A stretch of 64,000 bases of DNA from NCBI GenBank assembly GCA_024195265.1, contig JAJLRJ010000009.1, forward strand, positions 9,728,791 through 9,792,790, read 5' to 3'. Origin of the DNA: Dendrophyllia cribrosa. Its lineage: Eukaryota; Cnidaria; Anthozoa; Scleractinia; Dendrophylliidae. The position numbers and the translations under genes are program-made. The notes under the pieces are model-generated. The model searched no databases, was not told the DNA's origin, and saw only the letters and a list, made by a program, of their open reading frames with translations. Of the stretch, positions 9,775 through 31,504 are shown piece after piece. The stretch's first letter is position 1, and every line of letters begins with the position of its first letter.

Positions 9775-9937
9775 AGTAGTTAAGGACTTGGCGGTACCAG
9801 ATCAGTTTTGCAAAACTGATCTGATACCAAGCCAAGTCTTAACTACTTCCCATCTGTTGGATTAAAAAATATAGAAAAATCAAATGAAACTATATGTTAA
9901 TAAAAACAAAATGGTGCGTTTATTCCATTGCGTGATT
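9775..9937. repeat. Left terminal inverted repeat of A
   Basis: These 163 bp are the exact reverse complement of 26851-27013 as far as I can trace. The outer 73 bp (9775-9847) form a hairpin by themselves. The inner part carries GTGCGTTTATTCCATTGCGTGA, which holds a TAAACGCA motif pointing outward. Confidence 0.93.
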
Positions 9938-9948
9938 TCCTTTGCGTC

Positions 9949-10590: not shown

Positions 10591-10717
10591 TCGTTCGGTA
10601 GCAATAAATTCGCGTTAGCCGATTTTTACATGTTCGCTATTTTTGTTTTCTGGGAATTTAGACACGTGCCGCTTATAGCTATTGTTTTAAAAATATTATC
10701 TCATATAATAGTATAGA

Positions 10718-11290: not shown

Positions 11291-11372
11291 TCCAATATCG
11301 TCATGCAAAGGGGGTTTCCCTATGAATGAGTTATTGAATGAAAAGTTTGTTAGTAAAATTTACTCTAAAAGT

Positions 11373-11861
11373 TTACTCGGAAGTGAATTTTTTATCATAC
11401 TGTTTCTCGAATTTATCAGCAAGAGGACAAAGATCGATGATTATTTCATCAATCAGCCTCATTTCATTTATAAATGCGGTATGGTTAAATTGATTTCCTC
11501 TTAAACAAGACCGTAAATCAACTAATACTTTTTCATATGTTGTGTATGCAAATTTAGACATTTCTATTTTTCTTTTATAGTTTTTAATTTCGCTGTATGT
11601 CTTAATCAATAAACCACTACCACTAATTACTCCTAAAATAATAGGGTTTAATGTTATTGAACCAGCTATTGTACCAATGGATATTAAAGAAACTGATGAT
11701 AAATTAACAGCTAAATTCAATCTCTTGAAATATTTGTAAGCCTTCTTATAGCACCAAAAACGCTTGTGATAAAATCGATATAATGCTTTGATTTCAGATA
11801 GTTTCTCTTTACTAATGCTTTTATCAATATGATTAAAATTGAAGATGTCTGTTTTAGTCAT
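11373..11861 (-). CDS. Two-transmembrane protein (SLATT-like architecture)
   Basis: This 162-aa protein has a charged N-terminal helix (residues 18-48), two adjacent hydrophobic segments (about 49-69 and 71-88) joined by the short turn TLNP, and a cytosolic C-terminal helical region. This layout resembles SLATT-type 2-TM proteins, but I see no diagnostic residue, so the likeness is architectural only. It is very strongly conserved in provirus B (43270-43758), which suggests selection. It probably acts in a membrane late in infection. It faces the VLTF3-like gene tail to tail. Confidence 0.6.
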   Translation of the reverse strand: MTKTDIFNFNHIDKSISKEKLSEIKALYRFYHKRFWCYKKAYKYFKRLNLAVNLSSVSLISIGTIAGSITLNPIILGVISGSGLLIKTYSEIKNYKRKIEMSKFAYTTYEKVLVDLRSCLRGNQFNHTAFINEMRLIDEIIIDLCPLADKFEKQYDKKFTSE

Positions 11862-11879
11862 ATATATTATATATTTAGA

Positions 11880-12281
11880 TTATATTTTAGGATTTGAAAT
11901 AAGACAATATAATACATCACTTATTTGGCCCATTATTGGAGATCTTTTTATTTTCTTCGGTATTGAAAGGCAGCAATATGTGTATCCAGGCCCCTTTTCA
12001 TAGTCATTGTAAAATCTTCCAAATGCATCATGAAAAATAGCATGTTTAATTAAAAATTGGTAATTGGTATTTAGAGTACAAGAACCTGGTCCTATTAATC
12101 CAATGTCAGAGTGTTTTTCTAATATTTGGTTAAATGATATTGGCTTATTCAAATAGTTAACGTACAAAAATTGATATATTAAAGCCGATTTTAATATTTC
12201 ATCTTTAGTATTAGGATGTAGGTTTTTTTGGGTTGTGAAAAATTTATTACAAAAATTAATTGACTGTGCAAGAATTGACAT
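11880..12281 (-). CDS. Conserved Polinton protein, unknown function (133 aa)
   Basis: A mixed helical small protein with cysteines at residues 11, 68, 103 and 104. It ends KKIKRSPIMGQISDVLYCLI and then SNPKI. The provirus B counterpart (42841-43173) is nearly identical but has a TAA where this protein reads KIKRSP, so this copy is the intact one. It sits between the 2-TM gene and the fibre gene on the same strand, separated by about 20-30 AT-rich bases, as in a late gene run. I do not recognise a family. Confidence 0.55.
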   Translation of the reverse strand: MSILAQSINFCNKFFTTQKNLHPNTKDEILKSALIYQFLYVNYLNKPISFNQILEKHSDIGLIGPGSCTLNTNYQFLIKHAIFHDAFGRFYNDYEKGPGYTYCCLSIPKKIKRSPIMGQISDVLYCLISNPKI

Positions 12282-12313
12282 TTATATATATCAATATATT
12301 AGATAATTATATA

Positions 12314-14458
12314 TTAAAACTCTTCAAAAAGTACACTGATATGGCAATTATAAGGTGCATATGTAATATGATCAATTGATATTAATTTGATTCGTACAAC
12401 TGTATCTTCATTGAAATTGATAACTGATGACGCTATATTGAAAGTGTAATAAATTTTATTCGATGCTTTATTCCAATTTTGGGGTCCAAAAGAATTGTTA
12501 CCGATCAATATAACCATTTTTTTGTATCCTTCAGGCGGTTTATCGTCCAATATTATCAACCATAATTTTACTATTTTCAAATTAGTTACCGCAATAAATG
12601 ATGATGAACCGTTGAATATGATATCATTAGTGTTCTTATTTTTCATATAATTGCCTAAAAATATGAATTTTTGTTTCTTTATAGGTAAACCAATTATGTT
12701 TCTACCATTTAAATCAATATCAGTCTCCATAACCATTTTTCCATTTTCAATTACAAAAACAGTATCAAATACATCTGGATCGACACTCGAAACATGTCCT
12801 TTAACACCATAAACGATTAGATGTGCTTTCTTTGTATTCCCTTTTGTTATTCTTCCATGAAGATCTATCATTATATATTCAGGTGGAGAGACCCGCCATT
12901 TGTGTAAATGAACAATGCTTTTCGTATATCCTTCAGTGTTGAAAATCTTTGTTGTTTACTGACCGATGCTGATAACTGTTGAGACAACAGTGACAGATGT
13001 TGAACTAATATGAGCTTTATCTGGAACAAAAAACTCGATTACCAAAGTGAACTCACCTTGAGGAAGTTTGTATGCATTGAAACCTATCCTTGACCTGAAG
13101 TCATCATTATTGTCTGTTGTAAGTGTTATATCATAGGCTTTCTTATTGATTTGGTGAGGTGATGCAGCAAAATTGATAATACCATTAACAACTATATTAC
13201 TTTCTGAGGAGCTCTCATCTACATCTTCCATTAGATATCTGAAAACATCTTTCAATGTAGATGGAGTTATGTGTGACTTGTTTACATAACTCTTATAATC
13301 ATCCGTTATTCGTGTGTACAAGTTTGTATTGGAATCATTGAGTTCGGTGTTGAAGAATGAAACATTTATAGCAGCGTCATTCTCATTTGGTTTAGGAGTT
13401 GCTAGATTAACAATCTTTTTATCTCCCATATCAAGATCGCTGGAAATAGTTTTATCAAGTTTGAGTGTTTCTAAATTATTTATTGCATTCGTATTTTGAT
13501 TTATTCTTGTGTTGTTATCACCAGTTTTTGTGTCAACATATCCTTTATTTGTAGCGTGATCAATTGCTATTGGATCTTTTACATTGAAGATCGTATTTTT
13601 ATTCATATCAAGGCCCGTTTCCATCATCAACATCTCCTTACGGCTAAGAAATACGTTTTTGCAATCGTTATATGATACCAGATTATTATATGAAGCCGCT
13701 AGTTGAAGATATGTTTGGGGCTTCGATTTAGTGATATTGTATTGTTCTTTCAGATTGATATCTTGATTGATATCTTGAGTATGTGGAATAGTACTTACTT
13801 TATTATCAACGTATGCTTTATTGGTGGAATCATTAGGGTCTACCGGTGGTTTGACATTAATAATCCTAGTATTCTTAGCATCATAATGGGTACCATCGTG
13901 ATTCAGGAATATCCTCTTACCGTGGTATAGGCTGAAACAATCGTTATCACCACCTGTTTGAATATTGGTGATAGAATGATAATTAGCATCTAGATGGTTA
14001 TTCAGGACTATCTGTTGATCTTTTAGATAGGTATTTGCCTTATCAGCTTTTTTATCATTATGTTTCTTCAATGTGATCATATTCACTGATGAAAGATCTT
14101 GATTTTCATCGGTATCTAGATTGGTAATCAGTTTTTGATCCATATCAATTTCACCAGGAAGAATTAATTTATTTCCTCTTAAATCAAGATCTCCCGTCAT
14201 GTGATTTTCGCCATTCAACTATAATACTTCATATTTACCTGGTTTAGTTAGTAATCCAACATCTAATTGATGCTTGGTAATTGCATCTCTGTCATTACCC
14301 CCTTCCTTTAGATTGACAAGTTTTTTATTCTGCATATCATAGTTATTGTTTGGATCCAACTTGAGTCCACTACTTGCTTGAATTTTTTGGCTAATGATTC
14401 TAATATATTCAGAAATGTCAATATTTGTGAATTTCTTAAGGTTATTAAATATGCCCAT
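12314..14458 (-). pseudogene. Fibre gene with two in-frame stops
   Basis: One continuous frame of about 714 codons is broken only by a TAG (14219-14221) and a TAA (12956-12958). Provirus B has sense codons at both places in an open gene. The protein is built of repeats such as LDLRGNKLILPGEIDMDQK and GLDMNKNTIFNVKDP followed by NKGYVD. This is the LDM..N.I.NL..P..DAVNK.YVD pattern of phage and adenovirus-like trimeric fibres. A globular C-terminal domain (about 185 aa) follows the second stop and is almost identical to B. The N-terminal ~80 aa differ from B and lack its collagen-like stretch. Stop-codon readthrough is possible but less likely than mutation. Confidence 0.75.
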
Positions 14459-14476
14459 CTATATTATGATATTACA

Positions 14477-15112
14477 TTAGATTACTTCATCAAAATTCTT
14501 CTTCACACTTTTATTTTCTTTGTCCACAAACAGAAATTCATAGGGCCCTAATTTATTGAACAAACCAGGGTCTATTAAGTTTTCTTTGGCAATGAGATTC
14601 AAATGGTTTTTGGTAGTAGGAGGGTACAACATCATATGACTGCAGTTTAATCTAAGTTTCTGCGGAATATCATAGTAACTCTGGCTTAAATAAATTGGGC
14701 TTATCTTATGGTGGCGTCCATCTGTGAAGTTGTTGGCAATTTTATTTTGTATTTTATCAGGTGCATTAATTAGATCATCAAAAATGACAATTTTACGGTT
14801 GTTGTTGGGATATTCTGAAGTGTCTTTAATATCATCAGATGATCCAATTTCTAATACAGGATAACCAACCTTATCAGATATTTTATTCATCAATGTTTGT
14901 AGATCTTGTATTTTTTCCTGATGATGATTTGGTGTGTATAAATATATCTTATCATAATACATCAGTGGTGATCTTAACATATGCATAAGAGCATTTGTCT
15001 TTCCACATCGACTTTGTCCTGTAATAATCATTCTAAAATCTTCGTCTAAAAAATTGTTTAATCTTTTTTTTAATTCATCATTTCTATTTGTATCGTAATT
15101 CGGAATTTTCAT
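14477..15112 (-). CDS. A32/FtsK-type genome-packaging ATPase
   Basis: This 211-aa P-loop ATPase of the FtsK-HerA superfamily packages DNA into capsids in Polintons and related viruses. Visible motifs are Walker A GQSRCGKT (residues 32-39), Walker B KIVIFDDL, the sensor-like segment IYLSQSYYDIP, and a conserved RLNCSH. Length is normal for the family. It starts divergently from the virion block at 15246, sharing a ~130-bp promoter region. The provirus B homologue is frameshifted and much more divergent than the flanking genes. Confidence 0.92.
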   Translation of the reverse strand: MKIPNYDTNRNDELKKRLNNFLDEDFRMIITGQSRCGKTNALMHMLRSPLMYYDKIYLYTPNHHQEKIQDLQTLMNKISDKVGYPVLEIGSSDDIKDTSEYPNNNRKIVIFDDLINAPDKIQNKIANNFTDGRHHKISPIYLSQSYYDIPQKLRLNCSHMMLYPPTTKNHLNLIAKENLIDPGLFNKLGPYEFLFVDKENKSVKKNFDEVI

Positions 15113-15245
15113 TATATAAAATATGTTAGATAATAAATATAAGTGTTGTTTTTACACATATTTATAAATATAAGTGTTGTTTTTACACATATTTTTAAAG
15201 ATAAGTGTCATTTCGACAGATAAATTATGTAACATATTTTATATA
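15113..15245. promoter_or_regulatory. Divergent promoter region with GTGT..ACAC direct repeats
   Basis: A ~29-bp unit containing GTGTTGTTTTTACAC is present twice (about 15132-15192), with a third, partial GTGTCATTTCGACA. It lies between the leftward ATPase and rightward virion genes. TATATAAT-like boxes lie at both edges. In provirus B the same position holds six shorter repeats, GTGTTGTACACC. Confidence 0.65.
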
Positions 15246-16352
15246 ATGAATATTGACAGAATTAAAAAATATGCTGATTCAGAATATGATAGCTATAAAA
15301 TTGTCAAAGCAGTTACTGAATCAAAAAATGAAATAAAAAATAAGGAAGGAGGGCGTGATATTGTAATGAGTGATTATTTTAAGACATTACGAGAGCCATT
15401 GATTGAAAAACAGAAAAAAACAGATGAGAAACAGGATCAACTAATTGAACAACTACGGGGAAATCAATTAGCTTTAACAAAGGGATTTCAGGATATAATT
15501 GAATCGAATAAAGACATAATAACATTACAACATGAGCTACCCCAAATAGATTACCAACCAGAACAAAAATCAAGAAAAGATCCGACATATTTTAATATTG
15601 ATAACCGATTTAATAAAGATGATAAAATTGTTTTAAACAAAAACAATTTGACAATGCCCTCACAATTATTATCATTGTCTCCCCAAAAATTATTGGAAGA
15701 AAAGAAAAAATCTGCCGAATTAGCAATGGACTTGGGCAGAAATAAAAAGGGCAAGAGTGGAGAAGTTAAGGCGGAATATACTAATGAAATAGGCGTTCTT
15801 CGAAAATATAGGGATACGATCTCAGACGTATTAAAGTCGTTTGAGTATAGACAAAAAGGTGAGGGTATTCGAATATATAAACAACCAAAAAGAAATGCTT
15901 TCAAAATAAATAGTAATCAATATGGTGGCCTTCTTATTGATGTCTCAAAATTGATGAATGAAATGAAGCTGAATGCATATCATGGTGGTAAATTGGTTTA
16001 TGAAGCTGATGCTGATAAATCACTCATAAATATGCTAACTAAAAGATATAATCCCAAAACAAACTACAGTCTGAATGCTGTAAAGATTTTTAACGATCTT
16101 AATATGCTCAGTAATATTGGACCACACAAATCATCTGGTAAGTCCAGAATGATTGGATCAAGTGTTATGTATTATCAAGATCCAAAGCAATTGGCTGATC
16201 GCATGAAAATAATAATTGGTTCAATGGTAGCTGGAAACAATAGTCCAGTGTTGCGAAATGACTTATCACAAATCAATGATGAATTAATGAAAATAGGGGC
16301 TATTGACAGAACAATGCATGAGAAATTATACAATAAATATATAAGCATATAA
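15246..16352 (+). CDS. Coiled-coil virion-block protein, first gene of late operon
   Basis: This 368-aa protein starts at ATG 15246, just after a TATATAAT box. The N-terminal ~110 residues are charged and helical (coiled-coil like, EKQKKTDEKQDQLIEQLRGN). A basic middle region contains KGEGIRIYK and YGGLLIDV. The C-terminus (about 60 aa, from YYQDPKQLADRMKIIIGS to LYNKYISI) matches the same region of the provirus B gene at 38669-39682, although the rest is highly divergent. Position before the penton gene (4-bp gap) suggests a structural or assembly role. Function is unknown. Confidence 0.6.
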   Translation: MNIDRIKKYADSEYDSYKIVKAVTESKNEIKNKEGGRDIVMSDYFKTLREPLIEKQKKTDEKQDQLIEQLRGNQLALTKGFQDIIESNKDIITLQHELPQIDYQPEQKSRKDPTYFNIDNRFNKDDKIVLNKNNLTMPSQLLSLSPQKLLEEKKKSAELAMDLGRNKKGKSGEVKAEYTNEIGVLRKYRDTISDVLKSFEYRQKGEGIRIYKQPKRNAFKINSNQYGGLLIDVSKLMNEMKLNAYHGGKLVYEADADKSLINMLTKRYNPKTNYSLNAVKIFNDLNMLSNIGPHKSSGKSRMIGSSVMYYQDPKQLADRMKIIIGSMVAGNNSPVLRNDLSQINDELMKIGAIDRTMHEKLYNKYISI

Positions 16353-16356
16353 TATA

Positions 16357-17118
16357 ATGGATGTAAATAGAGTTTTAGTTTTCAAATCAATAGATGCTAA
16401 AAAACAAAACCAAAATAATAAACCAGGTAATTTCACTGTAAAGTTCATTCCTGAATTAATTTTAGATGACAACAAACAATACTATATGGCATTAGATCAT
16501 CTCAGTATGACTGCAAGTTGGCATAACATACGACCAGAATATTATAACAACCAATTAAAGATCTCAAAAAACAAAGGCACTTCTTGGCAAACAATAACAT
16601 TCCCACCAGGTATTTATGACTATGATGATATAAATCAATATATTCACAATGAAATTGGAAAACTCATGCAAAAGGAGACTTATGGAATTGATATATTATT
16701 TGACCTTACAACATATAAGGTTTTCATAATGTTGGATGAAAACTATTGGATTGATTTCAAGAATAGCGGAAACTTTGCAGATTTACTGGGTTTCGATAAA
16801 ACAGGGATATTGAAAGTGAGTTCTTATGGACCCCAATTTCCTAATATCAGCAACAGTATTGATAACTTATACATAAGAACTTCTCTTCTAAGTAATTCAA
16901 TCGTTTCAGGAAGGTTATCAGACGTGCTTTTTACCTTCTCAACGAATACAAAAACAAGATCTCTACCATTTGAAATACAACCAATGAATTATCTTTGGAA
17001 TAAAATAAATACAAAAGTACTATCTGAAGTTACTTTTTATATCACAGACGACGAAAACAGGGAGGTTGACTTAAATGGAATTGATATATCTTTAACCGTT
17101 GTGATAAAAGAAGCTTAA
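16357..17118 (+). CDS. Penton / minor capsid protein (single jelly roll)
   Basis: This 253-aa protein is of the Polinton penton type, which forms the five-fold vertices of the capsid. Supporting features are its beta-rich sequence, the segment TFPPGIYDYDDINQYIHNEI (the LP.G.Y....I...I pattern), the LLGFDKTGIL motif shared with the B copy, and its position just before the major capsid gene. Length fits the family (about 250 aa). The frame is open from ATG to stop. The provirus B counterpart has two stops. Confidence 0.8.
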   Translation: MDVNRVLVFKSIDAKKQNQNNKPGNFTVKFIPELILDDNKQYYMALDHLSMTASWHNIRPEYYNNQLKISKNKGTSWQTITFPPGIYDYDDINQYIHNEIGKLMQKETYGIDILFDLTTYKVFIMLDENYWIDFKNSGNFADLLGFDKTGILKVSSYGPQFPNISNSIDNLYIRTSLLSNSIVSGRLSDVLFTFSTNTKTRSLPFEIQPMNYLWNKINTKVLSEVTFYITDDENREVDLNGIDISLTVVIKEA

Positions 17119-17140
17119 TTTATATACACTCACTATATAG

Positions 17141-17512
17141 ATGGAACGAAGAGAAAGAGATCCAGATACTGGAGATTACATTATTCAAGGTGAAGGAATA
17201 TTTGATGTTTTCAAAAATGTTGGAAGTAAGATAGCTTCAAAACTTGCAAGCAAAACAGCTAAACAACTTGCTAAAAAGGGTGCTGAAAAGTTGATAGAAA
17301 AGGGGTCGGAAAAAATAGGTGAAAAAACAGGTCAGCTTATTGGTGACAAAATTTACAATAAATTTAGTGATAAAACAAACGAGCCAAAAATAACGAATGA
17401 AACAAAAGGTGATGAAATAATCAAACTTTTACAAAAAGAAAATGAGCAACAGGCTCAAGATACTGACAAATATCAATATATTAAAGATGTTTATAATGAT
17501 TTACTATTATAA
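17141..17512 (+). CDS. Small basic amphipathic core/minor capsid protein
   Basis: A 123-aa protein starting MERRERDPDTGDYIIQGEGI, followed by a long alanine/lysine-rich helix (residues 22-75) with heptad-like KLASKTAKQLAKK. IQGE|G at residues 15-19 fits the adenain cleavage consensus (M/I/L)xGx|G, as in adenovirus pVI/pX-like proteins. It lies between penton and major capsid genes, as does the B copy (37485-37883). It may bind DNA or the inner capsid. The exact role is inferred from position and composition. Confidence 0.6.
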   Translation: MERRERDPDTGDYIIQGEGIFDVFKNVGSKIASKLASKTAKQLAKKGAEKLIEKGSEKIGEKTGQLIGDKIYNKFSDKTNEPKITNETKGDEIIKLLQKENEQQAQDTDKYQYIKDVYNDLLL

Positions 17513-17540
17513 TGATTTTTTATCTAAACTAATAATATAT

Positions 17541-18851
17541 ATGAACGGAAATTTTCGAAGTCCAGAATTTGTTAAAAGATATGAATATGCATATTATGAT
17601 TTACAAACACCTTTGAATGCTAATATTGGGGCAAATAATCGACAAACAAAAGATAATTACATGTTTGTAATAGATAATAGCTCAGAGGCTAACCCAATAG
17701 ACTGGTATAATGCATATATTGAAGTCAATTTCAAGCTTCTTCAGTTAGATCAAGATCAAGATGGAGCCGGCGTCGGTGCCGGAGTGGGAAATGGAAATTT
17801 ATTTTGTACAACAACAAACGGTAACACCTTCATCAGAGAAATACAAGTTGAATGTAATGGTATAAGTGTATATAACAACACAAAAGCCAATGAATCATCG
17901 AATGTTCTATCACTTTTAAAATACACTAAAGAATATGCCAATACAGTTGCTAAAGACAATTTCTTTTATTTAGATACTTCGACTGGAACAGCTGAACCAA
18001 GAACAGCTCAAGCATTGTACAACCAAGGATTCGCGACGCGAAAAATTCTTACAGACGCAGGCAGTGAGAACAAAATATCTATCCCATTGAATATATATTC
18101 GTATTTTGCTGCATTCAAAAAGAATCTTCATCCAAATATAAAAATGAACATTTTAATCCGATTGGAAAATGATAACAATATTATATTTCGTAGCAATGCT
18201 GCTCCTGATTCAAAAGTTTTGATGACTAAATTCAGATTATGGTGCCCTAAACTTATTTTCAATGGTAGTGGTATGCGTCAATATCTGGAAAACTATCTGA
18301 AACCAAAAACTTGGATATACTTGAGAGAGCATTATGAAATAAATCAAACTGCGGCTGTGAGTTCATTTTTCAGAATTAGTACAGGTATAAGAAGACCAAG
18401 ACATGTTTTTCTATGGGTGAATCCAACAGCTTCATATAATAATCAAGAAGCTAATATATTTACATTCAAGACATTCAGTATAGGTGCAAATAACAGAGTT
18501 TTCAGTAAAGCTCAGCTTGAAATGAATAATAGCATATATTATCCTCAACTTGAATTGTCAGCTAATGAAGAGAGTAGATTATACAGAACACTTACGAGCT
18601 ATAGTTCTGCTTACAATGACTTTCTTAGTGGGTCATTAATTGATAGAAGTAATTTCAGAAATTTGTTTGGAATGATTTATTTCGACCTAAGAAATCAAGA
18701 GGAAGACACAAAAGATTCTGTTGTATCATTAACTTTTCGATATGAACTTAATGGTGTAAATGCAACTAACTATACTTTGAATGCTCTTGTTCTTCATGAA
18801 AAAGAGATCGAATTATACACAAGCAGCGGCAAACTACTTATTAAAGCATAA
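17541..18851 (+). CDS. Major capsid protein (double jelly roll)
   Basis: A 436-aa major capsid protein of the Polinton double-jelly-roll type, which builds the hexon-like capsid lattice. I chose the ATG at 17541, directly after the TATA-like ATAATATATATG. Upstream codons in this frame overlap the previous gene. Family-like features are the N-terminal FRSPEFVKRYEY, a DWYNAYIEVNFKL strand shared with B (DWYNAYYEVQFQV), a central LWCPKLIFNG / LLWVPKLTPK segment, and a C-terminal LTFRYELNG / LIFRYRLSQ strand. It is highly divergent from the B copy although integrase and PolB are nearly identical. Confidence 0.85.
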   Translation: MNGNFRSPEFVKRYEYAYYDLQTPLNANIGANNRQTKDNYMFVIDNSSEANPIDWYNAYIEVNFKLLQLDQDQDGAGVGAGVGNGNLFCTTTNGNTFIREIQVECNGISVYNNTKANESSNVLSLLKYTKEYANTVAKDNFFYLDTSTGTAEPRTAQALYNQGFATRKILTDAGSENKISIPLNIYSYFAAFKKNLHPNIKMNILIRLENDNNIIFRSNAAPDSKVLMTKFRLWCPKLIFNGSGMRQYLENYLKPKTWIYLREHYEINQTAAVSSFFRISTGIRRPRHVFLWVNPTASYNNQEANIFTFKTFSIGANNRVFSKAQLEMNNSIYYPQLELSANEESRLYRTLTSYSSAYNDFLSGSLIDRSNFRNLFGMIYFDLRNQEEDTKDSVVSLTFRYELNGVNATNYTLNALVLHEKEIELYTSSGKLLIKA

Positions 18852-18940
18852 ATTAATTATGTTGTTACAATATTTATAGTTTTTTAATTAAACATGTTTT
18901 GTAATTATCAAAATTATATAACATATATTATATACAAAAT

Positions 18941-19777
18941 ATGACAACTTATTATGAATATGGTGTGAAATTATCTCAAGGACAAAAACAAAAATTAGCA
19001 AAAGCATATGAAACAAATTCACCAATAACAATTCGATTAGCTAAAAATGAGTTGATGGGAAGCGATGGACTGAATTTAACTAAAACACAGATAAATAAAA
19101 TCAAAAAAGCGATAAAAAATGGAGTTGGTGTAGATATTAAGATTTCAAAAACACAGATTAGAAAATCAGTTAAATATGGCGGTTCTTTATGGTCTAGTTT
19201 AATTTCACTTGGAACAAAAATGCTTCCAATGGCCACCAAATTAGTATCAAAAGCGGCACCAGCTTTAGCTACTGGGGCTTTATCTGCTCTAGGATCTTTG
19301 GGAATTGATAAAATTTTTGGAAAAGGTATTCAATCTGGTGGTTTCTTAATACCAGATTCAAAAATACAGCAATTGATTAAGTATAAACACCTTTTAACTA
19401 AAAAACAAAAACAAGACATTTTAGCTGCTATTCAAAATGGAGGACAAGTATTCATTCAACCATCACAAAAACAAAGAGGTGGTTTTTTGGGGACGATCCT
19501 AGCATCTATTGGTATTCCAATGTTGTTGAATGCATTAACAGGAAAGGGTTTAAGTATACCAAAAAAGAAAGCATCTGGATTAACAGTTTCACCTAAACGT
19601 GGAATGATGATGCCTTATTATCCACCACCATTTTATGGAAACTGGCCCTCAAATACTATAGGTATGGGAGCAAAAAAAAAAGTCAAAACAAAAACAAAAA
19701 AGGGAGAGGGCCTATTACTAGGCAAAAACAGTCCTTTTACAAAGTTAGGAATACCAATTCTAGGAGATATCCTGTAA
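18941..19777 (+). CDS. Minor virion protein with repeated GG motifs; likely frameshift donor
   Basis: This 278-aa protein has three related modules of the form LTxxQxxxIxxAIxNGxxVxI (about residues 11-34, 46-75, 151-178). They are followed by GG motifs (KYGGSL, IQSGGFL, QRGGFLG) that resemble adenain (M/I/L)xGG|X sites. Hydrophobic segments lie at about 95-122 and 183-200. The C-terminus is lysine-rich, then KGEGLLLGKNSPF, a motif shared exactly with provirus B. The 3' end overlaps the protease frame (-1), with slippery A runs at 19672-19681 and 19696-19702. It is probably a capsid-internal, membrane-active or DNA-binding protein, comparable in position to adenovirus minor capsid proteins. 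Function is not established. Confidence 0.6.
   Translation: MTTYYEYGVKLSQGQKQKLAKAYETNSPITIRLAKNELMGSDGLNLTKTQINKIKKAIKNGVGVDIKISKTQIRKSVKYGGSLWSSLISLGTKMLPMATKLVSKAAPALATGALSALGSLGIDKIFGKGIQSGGFLIPDSKIQQLIKYKHLLTKKQKQDILAAIQNGGQVFIQPSQKQRGGFLGTILASIGIPMLLNALTGKGLSIPKKKASGLTVSPKRGMMMPYYPPPFYGNWPSNTIGMGAKKKVKTKTKKGEGLLLGKNSPFTKLGIPILGDIL
19696..19723 (+). promoter_or_regulatory. Putative -1 frameshift signal (minor virion protein to protease)
   Basis: The heptamer A AAA AAG (19696-19702) is correctly phased in the 278-aa frame. It is followed by 7 nt and a perfect stem GCCTA-TTAC-TAGGC (19710-19723). A second run of ten A (19672-19681) offers A AAA AAA. The protease frame is -1 and open from before this point. 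Provirus B has A AAA AAC at the matching place. Confidence 0.6.
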
Positions 19778-20238
19778 AACCAAAGTTCAGAGATATTCCT
19801 CTTTCAAATATTGATTTATTAAAATGGATTAAATATTTAAAAATAACCAATTTTAATGGTATTTATTCGAGGGATAGTTTGGATCATATCCACAAAATAG
19901 GATCTTGTATCATTAATCTTGATGATAAAATAGGTCCTGGTACACATTGGGTAGCACATTATAATAATATGAATGATAAGACTATATATTACTTTGATAG
20001 TTTTTCGTTACCTCCACCACAGAACTTGGTTGATTATGCTAAAAAATTGAAATTGAAGTATATATACAATTATGGTTATCCTATCCAAGATATCAAATCA
20101 GTTAGATGTGGATATTATTGTTTATATTTTTTGGATAACATTTATAAAAAATCATTTTATGATTGTATAAAAGTATTCAAATTAAATAACCAACAGTATA
20201 ATGAACGATTTATTGAAAACTATTTCAAAAATATCTAA
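19702..20238 (+). CDS. Adenain-like cysteine protease (-1 frame, no AUG)
   Basis: This is a C5-type cysteine protease that would process virion proteins. Catalytic features are GTHWVAHY (His), IYYFDSF (Asp) and RCGYYCLYFL (Cys). The frame carries conserved residues upstream of the His (KPKFRDIPLSNIDLLKW), shared with provirus B, yet contains no ATG until after the His. The first ATG (in YNNMND) would remove the active site. I therefore place the start at the frameshift heptamer of the preceding gene. Splicing or a non-AUG start (a TTG lies at 19879) are alternatives. It is followed at 20252 by a zinc-ribbon gene. Confidence 0.85.
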   Translation, partial: GRGPITRQKQSFYKVRNTNSRRYPVKPKFRDIPLSNIDLLKWIKYLKITNFNGIYSRDSLDHIHKIGSCIINLDDKIGPGTHWVAHYNNMNDKTIYYFDSFSLPPPQNLVDYAKKLKLKYIYNYGYPIQDIKSVRCGYYCLYFLDNIYKKSFYDCIKVFKLNNQQYNERFIENYFKNI

Positions 20239-20251
20239 TTATATTATATAA

Positions 20252-20410
20252 ATGGTAGAAAGTTATTGTGTAAAACAAGGAAAGGACACTGAATGTGTGC
20301 CAGGAAGTGAAAGTTATATGAAAACTAAAAATGGACGCACCATAATGAAATGCAAATGTGAAGAATGTGGTATAACAAAGAGTAAATTTGTAAAAAATGG
20401 GGGAAACTAA
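20252..20410 (+). CDS. DUF5679-like small zinc ribbon protein (52 aa)
   Basis: It starts MVESYCVKQGKDTECVPGSE and has a second CKCEECG cluster near residues 35-41. The pattern YCVK...T..KNGR....C.ECG is that of DUF5679-type ribbons found in many viruses. The ATG lies 13 bp after the protease stop. The provirus B homologue is at 34618-34782. Function is unknown; DNA or protein binding is likely. Confidence 0.7.
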   Translation: MVESYCVKQGKDTECVPGSESYMKTKNGRTIMKCKCEECGITKSKFVKNGGN

Positions 20411-20424
20411 ATAGCCAGTCAGAG

Positions 20425-21033
20425 ATGGCTGGCGGATTTTTAGATATAGAAGGTAGTCACAGTCTTGGTGAAATTGCTCTTAAATCTGGTATAAAAGGTC
20501 TCTATAATTTAGGCAGAATCGGAGCATCAAAAGCTATTAAATCTAATTTTGTAAAACGAAAGATTAAAGGAATGGCTGATAAATATTTGGATCAAGCGCT
20601 TGACAGTTTAACTTCAGACATTAGTAAGAAACTAGATCCATTAAATAAAGGTAGTGGAATTGACATTCATAAAATGATTGGTATGTTACCTAAGCCAAAA
20701 GGGGGATGGACACCAGGTAGTTACAAATACATGGGCCCATATAACCCATTAGATGAACAGTTAGAATATGATAAGGATACTGGTGAGGTAACAAAATGGT
20801 ATGTTCAACCTTACAATAAAGTGGATGAAATATCAGCTCATCACGATATTTGCTACGATATGGGTAGAAACAAGGGAGATTGTGATAAGAAAATGGTTAA
20901 ATCATTAGACGAAATACCTTACGGTGAGATGCCTAAATGGGGTCAGACTGCTAGATTCTTAATTAATACCAAACAAAAACTAGGTCTCGGTATTAAACAA
21001 AAAAGGAAGCCAAAAAACGGAAAGCGGCGTTGA
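20425..21033 (+). CDS. PLA2-domain minor capsid protein; frameshift donor for integrase
   Basis: This 202-aa protein begins MAGGFLDIEG (MAGG|F fits an adenain site), followed by a helical basic region and KGSGIDIHK. A phospholipase A2 domain of the parvovirus VP1 type follows: YMGPYNPLD (Ca loop-like) and the catalytic AHHDICYDMG with GDCDKKM. Such domains breach endosomal membranes during virus entry. The C-terminus is very basic (KQKRKPKNGKRR). The stop overlaps the integrase frame, and A AAA AAC at 21012-21018 is in the correct phase for -1 slippage. The B homologue has a different active-site region. Confidence 0.82.
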   Translation: MAGGFLDIEGSHSLGEIALKSGIKGLYNLGRIGASKAIKSNFVKRKIKGMADKYLDQALDSLTSDISKKLDPLNKGSGIDIHKMIGMLPKPKGGWTPGSYKYMGPYNPLDEQLEYDKDTGEVTKWYVQPYNKVDEISAHHDICYDMGRNKGDCDKKMVKSLDEIPYGEMPKWGQTARFLINTKQKLGLGIKQKRKPKNGKRR

Positions 21034-21054
21034 GTAAAAATGATTGGGCTCAAC
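21012..21054 (+). promoter_or_regulatory. Putative -1 frameshift signal (PLA2 protein to integrase)
   Basis: The canonical slippery heptamer A AAA AAC (21012-21018) is phased CCA AAA AAC in the PLA2 frame. It is followed after 10 nt by a 6-bp stem, GTTGAG (21029-21034) with CTCAAC (21049-21054). The -1 frame is closed by TAA a few codons upstream and leads straight into integrase. The heptamer and stem are identical in provirus B (33998-34004). Confidence 0.68.
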
Positions 21055-21977
21055 AATTAGCCGATGAATTACATAAGCCAATCAAACGAAAATTTAAAAC
21101 AAGAAGAGTTATTGTTAATGGAATAGATGATATTTGGAGCGCTGACCTTGTAGAAATGCAGAAGTTTTCAAAATGGAATAAAGGATATAGATATTTATTA
21201 AATATCATTGATGTGTTTTCGAAATTTGCTTGGAGCATTCCCATTAAAAATAAAACAGGTATTACAATCACTGAATCATTTGATGATGTTATTAAAAAAT
21301 CCAAACGGAAACCTAAATTTATTTGGGTAGACCAAGGATCTGAATTCTATAATAAAACTTTCAAAGACTGGCTAAAGAAAAATAATATTGAGATGTATTC
21401 TACTTTCAATGAAGGTAAAGCTGTTGTTATTGAGAGATTTAACAGAACATTAAAATCTAAAATGTGGAAACAATTTACAGCTCAAAATACAACACAATAT
21501 TTAGACATGTTACCAAAACTATTAAATGAATACAACAGTACAAAGCATTCAAGCATTGAAATGAAACCTATTGAAGCATCTATGAAAAAGAATGAAGGAA
21601 CTGTTTATTTCAATCTATATGATATGGAACTATTATCATATAAACCAAAATTTAAAGTTGGTGATAAGGTTAGAATTTCAAAGTATAAACGGAATGTGTT
21701 CGACAAGGGTTATACACCAAACTGGACTGAAGAAGTGTTTACAGTCGATAAGATACAATACACTAATCCTATAACTTACAAATTAAAAGATCTCAACGAT
21801 GAAGACATACAAGGGAGTTTTTATGAACCTGAACTATTAAAAGCCAAGCAGGATGTTTTCCGTATTGATAAAGTAATTCGGAGGGATTATAAAAAGAAAC
21901 AAGCTTTGGTGAAGTGGAAAGGATATAGTGATGATTTTAACAGCTGGATACCGTTAAAAGATGTCAAAAATATATAA
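21018..21977 (+). CDS. Retrovirus-type integrase with C-terminal chromodomain (no AUG)
   Basis: This rve-family integrase inserts Polinton DNA with a 6-bp target duplication. The catalytic triad is visible as SADLVEM (Asp), WVDQGSEF (Asp) and VIERFNRTLK (Glu), with 33 residues between the last two. An SH3-like segment (KFKVGDKVRISKYKR) and a chromodomain (VIRRDYKKKQALVKWKGYSD) follow, which may steer integration to chromatin. The first in-frame ATG lies four residues after the first catalytic Asp, so it cannot start a working enzyme. The frame is -1 to the PLA2 gene and opens at a slippery heptamer. I start the entry there. A TTG at 21030 is an alternative start. It is nearly identical to the B copy. 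Confidence 0.92.
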   Translation, partial: RKAALSKNDWAQQLADELHKPIKRKFKTRRVIVNGIDDIWSADLVEMQKFSKWNKGYRYLLNIIDVFSKFAWSIPIKNKTGITITESFDDVIKKSKRKPKFIWVDQGSEFYNKTFKDWLKKNNIEMYSTFNEGKAVVIERFNRTLKSKMWKQFTAQNTTQYLDMLPKLLNEYNSTKHSSIEMKPIEASMKKNEGTVYFNLYDMELLSYKPKFKVGDKVRISKYKRNVFDKGYTPNWTEEVFTVDKIQYTNPITYKLKDLNDEDIQGSFYEPELLKAKQDVFRIDKVIRRDYKKKQALVKWKGYSDDFNSWIPLKDVKNI

Positions 21978-21991
21978 TGTTTATATATATC

Positions 21992-22378
21992 ATGAGCGGT
22001 ATTGAGAAATATATCAAAAAAATAAATTTTCAAATTCAGGAATGTGAAGATGAAATAGACAATCTTCATGATAAAATATATGATAATGAGCGTAGATTGG
22101 ATCTGTTACAATATAAAAAGAAATTATTGAAACTTTATCATAAAAAAAATACATGAAATTGATGAAGATATAACATTGAAAGAGTTATTGAATATTATCT
22201 GCAATGAGATAGAAAACAATAGATACGATGATGAATGTAATGTGTTGAAACAAACCAAAGTTGATAATATTAAATATCTCAAACAAGAAAATAGTATATC
22301 TAGCACAACAAAAACAAGCAGCAACGCGGATTTGGAAAGATGTAGAAATATTCATCTGATCCAGGGCACATGGGTTTA
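21992..22378 (+). pseudogene. Coiled-coil protein gene, one-base frameshift
   Basis: The intact homologue in provirus B (120 aa, 32664-33026) is a coiled coil with heptads (INFQIQECEDEIDNLHDKIY) and a conserved ICNEIENNRYDDECNVLK region. Here the frame breaks in a run of eight A (22142-22149) where B has seven. The rest continues in another frame to a TAA at 22376. The C-terminal 25 residues also differ. It may still be expressed if polymerase or ribosomes slip on the A run. Confidence 0.65.
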
Positions 22379-22439
22379 AAAAATACAATCAGTAACATTA
22401 GAACACTAATCAGGGATTTAAAGGGATATACAAAATTGT

Positions 22440-22600
22440 TTTAAAGAGATGTTACTATTTACAAGTATCCCAGAAATTTCTGAGATATTTATATCTTTGC
22501 ATTCGCTATTCATTGGTAGCCAAAAATATTAATGTTTCTGGCTATATTTAAACGCATCAATGCAAACTATTTAAAAGAATATCTATAGTATTATATAGAA
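22440..22600 (+). promoter_or_regulatory. Conserved upstream region with TAAACGCA motif
   Basis: About 120 bp (AAATTTCTGAGATATTTATATC through TGGTAGCCAAAAATATTAATG) are also present, reversed, upstream of the same gene in provirus B (32510-32650). The block ends with TTTAAACGCA (22547-22556), 44 bp before the ATG, followed by TATAGTATTATATAG. It is probably an early promoter. Confidence 0.55.
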
Positions 22601-22852
22601 ATGGAAAAAGAAGTAATAAAAAGAGGTAGAGGACGACCGCCTATATACCACACCCAAGAAGCCAAAAAAGAAGCTATTAAAAGATCCAAAACTCGTTATA
22701 TGTTAAATAAAGAGTGGTATTGTCGTGTATGCAATAACAATATCAACTACTCGCTTGCTGGAAAATTCTGTCATGTGAAAACAAATAAACATATGGATAA
22801 TATTAATAGGAGAATCCATAATTTGATCATTGAAACACACCATGAAAACTAA
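22601..22852 (+). CDS. AT-hook plus C2H2-like zinc finger protein (83 aa)
   Basis: The N-terminus has an AT-hook core, RGRGRPP (residues 8-14), which binds the minor groove of AT-rich DNA. Next comes a zinc finger-like WYCRVCNNN with a distal CHVKTNKH (CxxC...HxxxxxH). Provirus B encodes a shorter relative with the same order, SRGRPKKY then YHCIECNKYF. Position between a promoter-like motif and the polymerase suggests an early DNA-binding regulator or replication accessory protein. The family is not known. Confidence 0.65.
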   Translation: MEKEVIKRGRGRPPIYHTQEAKKEAIKRSKTRYMLNKEWYCRVCNNNINYSLAGKFCHVKTNKHMDNINRRIHNLIIETHHEN

Positions 22853-22894
22853 GAAACATATAGTTTAATGGATCCATGATTGGATCACTTAAAT

Positions 22895-22960
22895 TCTCAA
22901 CCATACTTAAACGCACCAACTGAATACATATAAAGAATTATCTATACTATAGTATATAAA
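22895..22960 (+). promoter_or_regulatory. PolB promoter with TTAAACGCA motif and TATA box
   Basis: TTAAACGCACCAA (22907) lies 45 bp before the polymerase ATG. A TATA-like ATAGTATATAAA follows directly before the start. The spacing equals that of the preceding gene. Confidence 0.55.
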
Positions 22961-25900
22961 ATGAACAAGATCGATCTTGAGAAACTTAGTAAATCAGAAC
23001 TAATCAAATTGCTTTTAAAGCAACAGAAGAAAAAGCCTGAAATTATCATCGTAGATGATACCAAACCAGTTCCAACACCAAGGAGGCCTATTCCAACACC
23101 TCGCAAGAGTGTAAAACCAAACCAATCACCAAGACAAACAGTAAAAGAATTGGTTGACTATTTTGAGAGGAAAAGATTACCACCCCCACCTTCTGAATGG
23201 TTAGAAGAAATAGAACAATTAAAAAAGACACCAATTCCTACACCAAGGACTAAAAAAACAGTTAAACCTGTACCAGCTCCAAGGACTAAGATAGAGCAAA
23301 CAAACAAAGCTCTAAAAGGTTATACTAAATCCTTCGAAATTACATTAAAGAATAATAAAGACCCTTTAACACAATTACAACAAACAAGAAAAGGTATTGA
23401 AAACCATTTTAAAACCCTACTAAGTGATACAAAAGGAATTAAATTTGTTGAAACACTAAAGGTCACATTTGAGAAACTAGCTGGTGATGAAATAGTGCCT
23501 AAGACTGCATATTTTAACAGTGTGGCTCAGACGATTATTAACCACATAGAAATCGCTGAAGCGTTACAATTGTCTAAACAACAGATATTAAATAGTGTAG
23601 CTCAATGGATTTCTGAGGGTTCTGGATGGACAATAAGATCTATTGACAACCACTATATTAATATTGTTAAATACGAACCATTAAAGGGATCATCTTACAT
23701 TCAATTACCTTCAGAACTAAGAAATAGTGCTAAGGGATTGATAAACATGAAAAATAAAGACAATGAGTGTTTTAGATGGTGTCATATAAGGTACTTGAAC
23801 CCTCAAGACAAATATCCACAGAGAATCAAAAAAGTCGACAAAGATTTTATTGAAAAATTAGATTACTCTGGAATTCAATTCCCAGTGACTGTCAAACTGT
23901 ATAATAAAATAGAAAAACAAAATGAAATCAATATCAATGTATTCGGTTATGAGGAAAAGCAACCATATCCTATCTATGTATCCAAAGAAAAGTACGAAGA
24001 TCATATGAACTTGTTATTGATCACAGAAAACGAAAACAAACATTATGTATTAATAAAAGACTTCAATAAATTCATGTACAATCAGACGAAACACGAACAC
24101 AGAAAACATTTTTGCATGCATTGTCTACAATGCTTCAGTTCTGAAACAATCCTTAATAATCATAAAGAAAACTGTATTGTAATTAATGGTAAACAAGCTG
24201 TAAAAATGCCTGAAAAAGATAATAACATATTAAAATTTAACAATTATCATAAACAGTTAGCTGTTCCATTTGTAATCTATGCTGATTTTGAGGCTATTAC
24301 AGAAAAAGTACAAGGATGTCAACCAAACAATGATAAATCATATACTGAATCATATCAAAAACATAAAGACTGTGGATATGGATACAAAGTTGTCTGTTGC
24401 TATGATGATAAATACAGTAAACCAGTTCAGGTCTATAGAGGCGAAAGAGCTGTATACAAATTCATGGAAGCTATGCTGGAGGAAGTTAAATATTGTAAGA
24501 AGGTTATGAAAAAAGAATTCAATAAACCATTAAGAATGACCAAAGACGATGAAGAAGAATTCCAAAAAGCTGATAAATGCCACATATGCGAGAAAGAATA
24601 TAACAAAACCGATCTAAGAGTAAGAGATCACTGTCATATCACTGGTCAGTACAGAGGATCCGCTCATCAAGATTGTAATTTAAAACTCAGAATAAAACCA
24701 GAAGAAATTAAAATACCTGTGATATTCCATAATCTCCGTGGGTATGACTCTCATTTCATCATGCAAGAGATTGGTGAAATAGTCAAGAAGCATACATATA
24801 CAAATAAAAAAGGTGGAAAATGTCAAATGAATATCAATGCAATTCCGAATAATATGGAAAAGTATATGGCTTTCATGTTGGGTAATCACTTAACCTTTCT
24901 CGATAGTTTCCAATTCATGAGCTCTGGTTTGGAAAAACTAGTGAGTAATCTACCAAGAAAATCATTAAAATATACCTCTCAAAAATTCAAAGGTAAAAAG
25001 CTTGATCTGATGGCTAGAAAAGGAGTGTATCCATATGACTTCATGGATAGCTTTGAAAAGTTCAATGAAAAACTGCCATCAAAAGAAGAATTTTACAGCA
25101 TATTGAATGATGAACATATATCAAATGAAGATTACAAACATGCTCAAAATGTGTGGAATACCTTCAATCTTCAAAATATGGGTGAATACCATAATTTATA
25201 TCTTAAATCTGATATCCTTTTGCTAGCTGATGTGTTTGAAAACTTTAGAAAGACCTGTCTAGAATACTACAAATTAGATCCATGTCATTATTTCACATCT
25301 CCAGGTTTGTCTTGGGATGCTATGCTTAAAATGACTGATATCAAATTAGAACTTATAACTGATATTGACATGTTTCAATTTATCGAAAAAGGAATGCGTG
25401 GTGGAATAAGCTACATTGCCAATAGGTATGGTAAAGCAAACAATAAATACATGAAAACATATGATGAGAAGGTGCCCTCAAAGTATATAATGTATCTGGA
25501 TGCTAACAATCTATATGGTTGGGCTATGTCACAATACCTACCTACTGGCGGTTTTAGATGGATGACACAAAAACAGATCGATAAGATAGACCTAGCCAAG
25601 TATAAAGAAGATAGTGAGAAGGGTTTGATACTGGAAGTAGATTTAGAGTATCCTGAAGGGTTACACAATCTTCATAATGACTACCCGCTAGGGCCGGAAA
25701 AGGTTAAAGTAACTGAGAGTATGTTGTCTGGGTATTGTAAAAACATCGCGAAGAAATATAAAATATCAACTGGTTTAGTTCATAAATTGATACCAACCTT
25801 GAAGAACAAAGAAAAATACGTGCTCCATTATAGGAACCTTCAATTATACACTGATCTTGGTTTGAAAATAACTAAAGTCCATCGAGTACTAGAGTTTGAT

Positions 25901-26764
25901 CAATCTCCTTGGTTAAAACAGTATATCGACTTTAATACAGAAAAAAGGAAGAACGCAAAAAATGCTTTTGAAAAAGACTTCTTTAAACTTATGAATAACT
26001 CTGTATTTGGTAAAACGATGGAAAATATTAGAAAGCGAGTAGATGTAAGACTAATCACCGATGAAAAAAAACTATTGAAATATGCCAGTAAACCAACGTA
26101 TGTTAGTAGTAAGATCTTCAACGAAAATCTAGTAGCTGTGCATAAGATCAAAGAAACACTTACCCTAAACAGGCCGGCATATGTGGGTATGTGCATCTTA
26201 GATTTAAGCAAGACGTTAATGTACGATTTCCATTATAACTACATTAAAAAGAAATATGAAGACAAAGCCAAGTTACTCTTCACAGACACAGACAGCTTGA
26301 CCTATGAAATCGAAGCTGAAGATGTATACCAAGACTTTTGGAATGATAAAAATAAATTCGATAACAGTGACTACCCTGAAAGCTCACCGTATTTTGATAA
26401 GACAAATAAAAAAGTTATTGGCAAATTCAAAGATGAAGCCGCAGGAGTTCCTATTTGTGAATTCATCGGTCTACGATCTAAAATGTATAGTTACACGAAA
26501 GACAACCAAAAAGGAGGAAAGACTGCCAAGGGAATCAAAAAGAATATTATCAAAAATAATATCAAGCATCAAGATTATAAAGAAACGTTATTAGGAAATA
26601 AACAGATGCATCATACAATGAAAACAATCCGAAGCAATAACCATCAATTAGGAAGTTATGAAATCAATAAAGTATCACTCAGCTGTTTCGATGACAAAAG
26701 ATATATACTGGAAGATGGTATAAATTCATATGCTTATGGACATTATAAAATGAAAAAGAATTAA
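22961..26764 (+). CDS. polB: Protein-primed family B DNA polymerase
   Basis: A 1267-aa Polinton polymerase that replicates the provirus from its ends using a terminal-protein primer. Order of elements: an N-terminal IIIVDDTKP (SUMO-interaction-like), five PxxxPR motifs (residues ~30-110), an N-terminal domain, C2H2-like cysteines (HFCMHCLQCF) near 385, ExoI YADFEAIT (~440), a CHICEKEY..RDHCHITGQYRG insert (~540-570) resembling an HNH/endonuclease VII zinc site, ExoII NLRGYDSHF (~593), ExoIII YLKSDILLLAD (~746), motif A YLDANNLYGW (~845), motif B KLMNNSVFGK (~1009), and motif C FTDTDSL (~1108). All catalytic acids are present. It is the last gene of A, about 90 bp from the right terminal repeat. 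The frame is fully open. Confidence 0.95.
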   Translation: MNKIDLEKLSKSELIKLLLKQQKKKPEIIIVDDTKPVPTPRRPIPTPRKSVKPNQSPRQTVKELVDYFERKRLPPPPSEWLEEIEQLKKTPIPTPRTKKTVKPVPAPRTKIEQTNKALKGYTKSFEITLKNNKDPLTQLQQTRKGIENHFKTLLSDTKGIKFVETLKVTFEKLAGDEIVPKTAYFNSVAQTIINHIEIAEALQLSKQQILNSVAQWISEGSGWTIRSIDNHYINIVKYEPLKGSSYIQLPSELRNSAKGLINMKNKDNECFRWCHIRYLNPQDKYPQRIKKVDKDFIEKLDYSGIQFPVTVKLYNKIEKQNEININVFGYEEKQPYPIYVSKEKYEDHMNLLLITENENKHYVLIKDFNKFMYNQTKHEHRKHFCMHCLQCFSSETILNNHKENCIVINGKQAVKMPEKDNNILKFNNYHKQLAVPFVIYADFEAITEKVQGCQPNNDKSYTESYQKHKDCGYGYKVVCCYDDKYSKPVQVYRGERAVYKFMEAMLEEVKYCKKVMKKEFNKPLRMTKDDEEEFQKADKCHICEKEYNKTDLRVRDHCHITGQYRGSAHQDCNLKLRIKPEEIKIPVIFHNLRGYDSHFIMQEIGEIVKKHTYTNKKGGKCQMNINAIPNNMEKYMAFMLGNHLTFLDSFQFMSSGLEKLVSNLPRKSLKYTSQKFKGKKLDLMARKGVYPYDFMDSFEKFNEKLPSKEEFYSILNDEHISNEDYKHAQNVWNTFNLQNMGEYHNLYLKSDILLLADVFENFRKTCLEYYKLDPCHYFTSPGLSWDAMLKMTDIKLELITDIDMFQFIEKGMRGGISYIANRYGKANNKYMKTYDEKVPSKYIMYLDANNLYGWAMSQYLPTGGFRWMTQKQIDKIDLAKYKEDSEKGLILEVDLEYPEGLHNLHNDYPLGPEKVKVTESMLSGYCKNIAKKYKISTGLVHKLIPTLKNKEKYVLHYRNLQLYTDLGLKITKVHRVLEFDQSPWLKQYIDFNTEKRKNAKNAFEKDFFKLMNNSVFGKTMENIRKRVDVRLITDEKKLLKYASKPTYVSSKIFNENLVAVHKIKETLTLNRPAYVGMCILDLSKTLMYDFHYNYIKKKYEDKAKLLFTDTDSLTYEIEAEDVYQDFWNDKNKFDNSDYPESSPYFDKTNKKVIGKFKDEAAGVPICEFIGLRSKMYSYTKDNQKGGKTAKGIKKNIIKNNIKHQDYKETLLGNKQMHHTMKTIRSNNHQLGSYEINKVSLSCFDDKRYILEDGINSYAYGHYKMKKN

Positions 26765-26850
26765 ATCAAAAATAACTTTCCTTAATTCAATCCTGTGTAG
26801 ACTTCCTGTGTTTCCGAGAATTGTGTCACGCAAAGGATTCTATTATGTGG

Positions 26851-27013
26851 AATCACGCAATGGAATAAACGCACCATTTTGTTTTTATTAACATATAGTT
26901 TCATTTGATTTTTCTATATTTTTTAATCCAACAGATGGGAAGTAGTTAAGACTTGGCTTGGTATCAGATCAGTTTTGCAAAACTGATCTGGTACCGCCAA
27001 GTCCTTAACTACT
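26851..27013. repeat. Right terminal inverted repeat of A
   Basis: It mirrors 9775-9937, with the outer 73 bp (26941-27013) forming the same hairpin. Just inside, the two ends differ by a 13-bp insertion near 26838-26850. The duplicated target TTTCTT follows at 27014-27019. Confidence 0.93.
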
Positions 27014-27396: not shown

Positions 27397-27436
27397 TATG
27401 CTTGTCAAATAGGCTCAAAATGTCGAAAGATTGATA

Positions 27437-27540
27437 TATATGTCCAAATTGCAATATATATGTCCAAATTGTAATATATATGTCCAAATTGCAATATATA
27501 TGTCCAAATTGCAATATATATGTCCACCGTTTACAAAATA
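27437..27540. repeat. 20-bp tandem array, left arm of foldback
   Basis: About five units of ATATATATGTCCAAATTGCA. The right arm has about eight at 31310-31460. The open frames through it are artefacts of the repeat. Confidence 0.9.
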
Positions 27541-31150: not shown

Positions 31151-31504
31151 GTTGTTGTTGCTTAGTGCAGCCTCGCTTTCATTCTTCGCGGGATACGGGT
31201 CAGCTCATTTGCATAAGTTTGCACGCCGATATTTATATGTCGAAACTGTATCCGCAATATATATGTCAAAAATTACGTCATCGCCTTGGACATATATTTT
31301 GTAAACTGTGGACATATATATTGCAATTTGGACATATATATTGCAATTTGGACATATATATTGCAATTTGGACATATATATTGCAATTTGGACATATATA
31401 TTGCAATTTGGACATATATATTACAATTTGGACATATATATTGCAATTTGGACATATATATCAATCTTTCGACATTTTGAGCCTATTTGACAAGCATAGA
31501 TATC

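Follow-up and report, generated by a model that had tools for sequence, protein, structure and literature searches.

The integrase of a Polinton-type virus-like element present in many copies in the genome of the scleractinian Dendrophyllia cribrosa appears to be made as a fusion with PLA2, and −1 ribosomal frameshifting at the slippery heptamer A AAA AAC (21012-21018) is, with high confidence from the sequence, the best explanation for this fusion. The stretch analysed, here called the window, comprises 64,000 nucleotides (nt) of the assembly GCA_024195265.1 (contig JAJLRJ010000009.1, positions 9,728,791-9,792,790, forward strand) and contains two Polintons, A and B, in opposite orientation. 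The same −1 device probably acts at two further junctions of the element. The PLA2-integrase junction is referred to as J2, that between a zinc-ribbon open reading frame (ORF) and PLA2 as J1, and that between an ORF of 278 amino acids (aa) and the protease as J0.

In element A, the PLA2 ORF (PF08398; 20425-21033, + strand) starts at its own ATG at 20425 and contains the string AAAAAAC, split as A AAA AAC when it is read in the PLA2 frame. The integrase frame (PF00665 and PF00385, + strand) lies at −1 to PLA2. It is closed upstream by a TAA at 20994-20996, is open from 20997 to 21977, and runs 314 codons past the PLA2 stop. No ATG of its own is available for initiation, as the first one comes after the first catalytic Asp, and the list of ORFs begins the integrase at a TTG at 21030. 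A preliminary description of this DNA had already reported the heptamer in the PLA2 frame, with correct coordinates, and a −1 integrase frame closed by TAA and devoid of ATG before the first catalytic Asp, which is what is seen. It had also described a GTTGAG/CTCAAC stem behind a 10-nt spacer. Both are present, but the best fold is larger, consisting of a predicted stem-loop (21025-21063, + strand) which begins 6 nt past the heptamer.

All XXXYYYZ heptamers of the window (Y being A or T and Z not G, on both strands and in any frame) were ranked by the energy of the downstream hairpin. Among these 885 heptamers, the J2 sites hold ranks 10 and 11, the J1 sites of A ranks 3 and 5, and those of B ranks 6-8 and 19-20. 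The folds at the heptamers are modestly better than those of dinucleotide shuffles (z from −1.0 to −2.3). A frame-aware scan of the window called for an ATG-initiated ORF of 40 codons or more that contains an in-frame heptamer and whose −1 frame continues for 100 codons or more beyond the stop. Of its 12 rows, 11 belong to the three gene junctions of A and B, and the remaining one to a small ORF inside the polymerase ORF; the corresponding +1 control returned zero rows.

According to the proposed mechanism, most ribosomes would terminate shortly past the heptamer, yielding PLA2 with the basic tail. The others, a minority, would undergo a programmed slip back by one base at J2 and continue into the integrase frame, giving rise to a minor PLA2-integrase product of which the integrase would be the C-terminal part. 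The ribosome is the presumed slipping agent, and the ratio of the two products is presumed likewise. The fusion may then be processed by the protease of the element itself and may enter virions.

The behaviour of J2 was followed across the own genome of the coral (627 Mb, 22 contigs). With up to 3 mismatches allowed, a 30-base pattern of the junction has 227 occurrences there, and its reversed control has none. Junction-blind searches, which use the integrase core only, listed 138 places each for the A and B queries (from 2860 and 2892 first-look candidates) and 126 places for P0077, a more distant integrase; the three lists overlap. Open frames of more than 400 aa, which would denote a one-frame PLA2-integrase fusion, are found at 1 of the 138 places listed for A, 2 of the 138 for B, and none of the 126 for P0077. 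An open PLA2 frame, an in-phase heptamer, and an open −1 integrase frame are combined in 56 of 60 junction-blind loci taken from the A and B searches, a count that includes the window copies and leaves out 8 loci taken by the 30-base pattern and hence selected for the heptamer. The four exceptions are a stop in the integrase frame (L027), a changed heptamer (L047), a run one base longer that places both genes in one frame (L050), and an indel upstream (L059). In 38 divergent junctions, picked for diversity from the 126 P0077 places, the integrase is at −1 in 34, at +1 in 4, and in frame 0 in none, and the heptamer stands ahead of the PLA2 stop in 32 of the 34 junctions at −1.

Among 100 windows of 7 nt compared over 51 distinct junctions (derived from 106 stretches, the 8 heptamer-selected ones among them), conservation is highest at the heptamer (0.997 versus a median of 0.826), whose string is present in 49 of the junctions. 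A look at other elements for A AAA AAC at the PLA2-integrase overlap, suggested by the preliminary description, finds it kept in both the locus set and the junction set. From one junction family to another, the codon preceding the heptamer, the PLA2 stop, and the hairpin all change. The window family and family 2 (L026, L029, and others) have predicted folds of about −10 to −13 kcal/mol, 5-6 nt downstream of the heptamer, that are formed by different sequences.

Relatives from other organisms were sought with the integrase protein, and 120 of 7528 matches were listed. PLA2 and integrase are assigned by Pfam to one protein in 34 of the 120 matches listed, P0070 looks like a PLA2-integrase fusion without a Pfam call, and in P0017 and P0034 a single ORF encodes zinc ribbon, PLA2, and integrase. 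One of the 34, P0101, is a gene model of the coral Oculina patagonica which skips the junction. It is the observation that speaks for splicing, by which an upstream AUG exon would be linked to the integrase frame, and the late genes of adenoviruses are indeed spliced. Against this explanation, a crude test of positions 20900-21160 finds no AG whose 13 preceding bases include 8 or more pyrimidines, and intact vertebrate Mavericks are described with intronless ORFs in the part of the article considered (PMC8097293), so that splicing is regarded as very unlikely.

At the protein level, a frame-fit test was made of the integrase ORFs that extend upstream without PLA2, to see whether known PLA2 tails, read in a different frame, could encode the extension. 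Twelve of 22 integrase extensions, that of the window included, beat all 110 shuffles in −1, and none in +1. In the KN-tail class, which holds the nearest relatives, −1 fits better in 40 of 42 tails and +1 in 0, among a total of 117 PLA2 tails tested. On a quick tree of 61 hand-chosen integrases (34 one-frame, 13 at −1, and 14 unlabelled), the one-frame and −1 states are interleaved, with at least 7 changes, 4 of which are forced by well supported branches, and the states are still clustered. The frameshift proposed by the preliminary description is in this way supported by a heptamer and a −1 frame conserved across genome families and by one-frame PLA2-integrase proteins in relatives.

Scans of viral contigs with integrase and PLA2 gave no relatives; a scan of genome contigs gave five distant Polinton-type integrases (L001-L005). 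Four of these (L001-L004, on contigs in bacterial genome bins) are like the window integrase in the core and the C-terminal region, with 40-46% identity, but differ by an extra N-terminal region of ~40-60 aa that is absent from the window integrase family. This region starts with ATG in L001, L002, and L004 and with TTG in L003. The lack of the N-terminal region in the window family would fit an integrase that is always made as a fusion. A separate observation concerns P0114, a Trichoplax MELD virus record, in which a zinc-ribbon-like start is joined to the integrase with no PLA2. An AlphaFold2 model of P0034, a natural one-ORF relative, had a mean predicted local distance difference test score (pLDDT) of 49 and was not used.

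A number of observations weigh against frameshifting at J2, or at least against its generality. Among the PLA2 relatives, the KKKxPK class gives 15 tails for −1, 17 for +1, and 13 undecided, and the remaining 30 of the 117 tails give 0 for −1, 3 for +1, and 27 undecided; set against the KN-tail class, these counts mean that −1 holds for the nearest class and not for all. The one-frame junction peptides P0239 and P0139, which belong to another class, fit +1 better. In the own genome, the 4 divergent junctions at +1 are L088, L099, L103, and L105, and in 2 of the 34 divergent −1 junctions (L087 and L107) PLA2 stops just before the heptamer. Weak folds, of −2.4 to −5.3 kcal/mol, follow the heptamer in families whose PLA2 tails are longer (SKN..KKTGKKN and SKN..RRVVT), and the GTTGAG stem of the preliminary description, although present in the window, is accordingly not a general feature. 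At J0, 3 of the 4 scored sites have no hairpin by the ranking measure and the fourth has rank 31. The heptamer bases are also constrained by two overlapping frames, and because dual coding confounds conservation in this way, the conservation of the heptamer is strong evidence and not conclusive evidence. An in-frame ATG, in the integrase frame and upstream of the heptamer, occurs in 11 of the 38 divergent junctions, where initiation of the integrase would be possible. Given these folds and these ATG codons, A AAA AAC is, on the junctions compared, general across families, whereas the strong hairpin and the absence of ATG are not.

The same 11 junctions lend some weight to a separate translation of the integrase, either from a non-AUG start, namely the TTG at 21030, whose bases overlap with those of the PLA2 stop, or by termination and reinitiation. 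The TTG is suitably placed and is where the ORF list begins; yet TTG is a poor start codon in eukaryotes, and the PLA2 stop shifts by tens of bases between families relative to the heptamer, while the heptamer stays. Separate translation would also leave unexplained the one-frame fusions of relatives and the like layout at two more junctions, and it is considered unlikely.

Copy B, which lies on the − strand, has its PLA2 at 33983-34603, the heptamer at 34004-33998, and the integrase frame, again at −1 to PLA2, at 33039-34019. The preliminary description had pointed to this arrangement in B (33998-34004) as conserved. The arrangement is there, but it fails as independent support, and this has to be added to the points against. 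The two elements, otherwise diverged, share an identical tract of 204 nt (20993-21196 in A) that begins just ahead of the J2 heptamer; synonymous divergence (dS) between them is 0.17 within codons 1-200 of the integrase, 1.47 in its remaining codons, and 1.16 in PLA2. The tract at the junction appears to stem from a recent exchange between families, and copy B is for this reason no independent confirmation of A. Such a tract would be compatible with the −1 state being a decayed, disabled frame spread by copying, and most vertebrate Maverick copies are degraded, as stated in the consulted part of the same source (PMC8097293). However, the state recurs in junction families with different flanks, stop positions, and hairpins, as well as in relatives from other organisms. 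It is also found in an element with perfect terminal repeats and under purifying selection, the ratio of nonsynonymous to synonymous divergence (dN/dS) between A and B being about 0.14 and 0.22 for the two ORFs of J2. Decay has, on this evidence, a negligible probability.

Frameshifting is further suggested by the layout of J1. The upstream partner in A is the zinc-ribbon ORF (20252-20410, + strand; DUF5679-like, below the Pfam cut-off), which ends in TAA and to which PLA2 lies at −1. Two heptamers, A AAA AAT (20392) and G GGA AAC (20401), occupy 20392-20407 directly before the TAA, and a hairpin of 8 bp (20414-20433, + strand) follows 6 nt after G GGA AAC. In B, the zinc-ribbon ORF (34618-34782, − strand) has A AAA AAT (34633) and U UUA AAC (34627) ahead of its stop. 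J1 was located in 59 of the 60 junction-blind loci, and in 54 of these 59 a heptamer is found directly before the stop with the zinc ribbon in frame. The heptamers of the 59 loci are G GGA AAC (28), U UUA AAA (17), and U UUA AAC (9), with no XXXYYYZ in 5. The −1 frame is open for at least 100 codons past J1 in 53 of the 54 loci. The hairpin stands 5-6 nt downstream. Its arms are GCCAGUC/GGCUGGC or AGCCCUC/GGGGGCU, depending on the group, so that the paired bases change together. Since PLA2 has its own ATG at 20425, a slip at J1 need not be obligatory in the window. In family 2 (L035), the first Met that the PLA2 frame offers past the J1 slip is residue 57. Adenain-like cleavage motifs were also noticed in the stretch that separates the zinc ribbon from PLA2 (at about 20425-20445 in the window, and in related proteins), in 53 of 78 proteins versus at most 37 in 200 shuffled sets; this enrichment may be taken as a lead, the proteins being related.

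At J0, the upstream partner is the 278-aa ORF (18941-19777, + strand), with no Pfam match. The adenain-like protease frame (19597-20238, + strand; Peptidase_C5 with E 5.6e-05 for 19783-20235) lies at −1 to it, and the slippery region (19672-19702, + strand) contains AAAAAAA at 19672 and 19675 and AAAAAAG at 19696. The protease frame of A has no ATG before the presumed catalytic His, and in B the first Met comes four residues before it. Copy B has a 271-aa ORF (36069-35254) and a protease frame at −1, together covering 34796-36069 on the − strand, with heptamers at 35350 and 35335. A and B, which share this −1 position of the protease, have diverged in this region, with 136 of 263 residues identical and a dS of 2.48. 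In the own genome, J0 is at −1 in 45 of the 48 determinable loci, out of 60, and in frame 0 in 3.

J0 contains runs of ten A, and transcriptional slippage is possible there: RNA polymerase would slip on the A runs, and some mRNAs would carry the joined frame. The frames of the KKKxPK class, which differ as if the length of the run varied, and locus L050, where an additional base in the run puts both genes in one frame, point in the same direction. At J2, no more than six A stand in a row, within the fixed context A AAA AAC, and the J1 heptamers G GGA AAC, U UUA AAC, and U UUA AAA contain few A. In view of these two junctions, slippage by the polymerase is held to be highly improbable.

As for the elements themselves, Polinton A extends from 9775 to 27013 (+ strand; 17,239 bases) and is bounded by perfect terminal inverted repeats of 163 nt (9775-9937 and 26851-27013), with TTTCTT flanks on both sides; these features indicate that A is intact at its ends and probably recent. 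The gene order on its + strand is 278-aa ORF, adenain-like protease frame, zinc-ribbon ORF, PLA2, integrase, and PolB. Several features that define Polintons/Mavericks are found in A, namely PolB, an rve integrase with chromodomain, an adenain-like protease, and an A32-like ATPase by Pfam, and terminal inverted repeats with a 6-bp target repeat. Two candidates for jelly-roll capsid proteins (ORF 17442-18851 and ORF 36156-37442) have no Pfam match in a sequence-profile scan alone, and no reverse transcriptase or Gag domain was detected by Pfam in the subset of window ORFs scanned. Directly outside the left repeat of A, a polymerase-type ORF with an Endonuclease_7 match (7007-9754, − strand) is 81-84% like the PolB of A and is, by this likeness, assigned to a third element. 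Tandem repeats of 20 nt are found in inverted orientation between A and B (27400-27539 and 31274-31493), and an in-register 27-nt repeat (31912-32091) lies within ORF 31617-32141 (− strand).

The retroviruses mouse mammary tumour virus (MMTV), human T-lymphotropic virus 1 (HTLV-1), and Mason-Pfizer monkey virus/simian retrovirus (MPMV/SRV) use one or two −1 frameshifts in gag-pro-pol. The present junctions are like theirs in the heptamers of the A AAA AAC, G GGA AAC, and U UUA AAC type, in the predicted hairpin 5-6 nt downstream, in an integrase that would be reached by frameshifting alone, and in the presence of several junctions in a row. They are unlike them in belonging to a DNA element with a protein-primed PolB, whose upstream partners are PLA2, the zinc ribbon, and the 278-aa ORF rather than Gag. 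No family relation is claimed; the element would resemble a retrovirus in its mode of working, yet it is not classed as one.

Closer precedents come from Polinton-type viruses. A preprint predicts −1 frameshifts in Penton and Hexon-Adenain of adintoviruses (PMC11071296), and the second case is like J0 in being a computed −1 site in a Polinton-type virus that ends in the protease. The adintovirus cases differ in that they concern other genes; PLA2, zinc ribbon, and integrase go unmentioned in the portion of that preprint considered. In the insect elements Sf Maverick 1 and 2, PLA2 is described in the N-terminal region of CAP, a capsid-like ORF, with a separate integrase ORF (PMC5803895). These elements likewise join PLA2, a chromodomain integrase, an adenain-like protease, and PolB in one element, but the sections of that article taken into account mention no PLA2-integrase link. 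No description of a PLA2-integrase frameshift in Polintons was found in the literature searched, a partial search which does not imply its absence from print. According to the part of one review considered, relatively few eukaryotic DNA viruses are known to frameshift (PMC8310308).

A wider scheme of the gag-pro-pol kind for the late enzymes is put forward tentatively, as slightly more apt to fail than to hold. In this scheme, three −1 junctions would each attach an enzyme (protease, PLA2, or integrase), at a fixed ratio, to an upstream domain directed to the virion. The capsid would receive integrase and protease as fusions, from which the element's own adenain-like protease would free them, and the integrase would have given up its N-terminal domain and its start codon for this attachment. 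Maverick particles had not been observed, as reported in the passages considered of a vertebrate study (PMC8097293). If the frameshift is real, such a conserved coupling, at a set ratio, of integrase and protease with further proteins encoded by the element would point to particles that carry the integrase. It would also represent a convergence with retroviruses and would explain the missing start codons of such integrase and protease frames in annotations.
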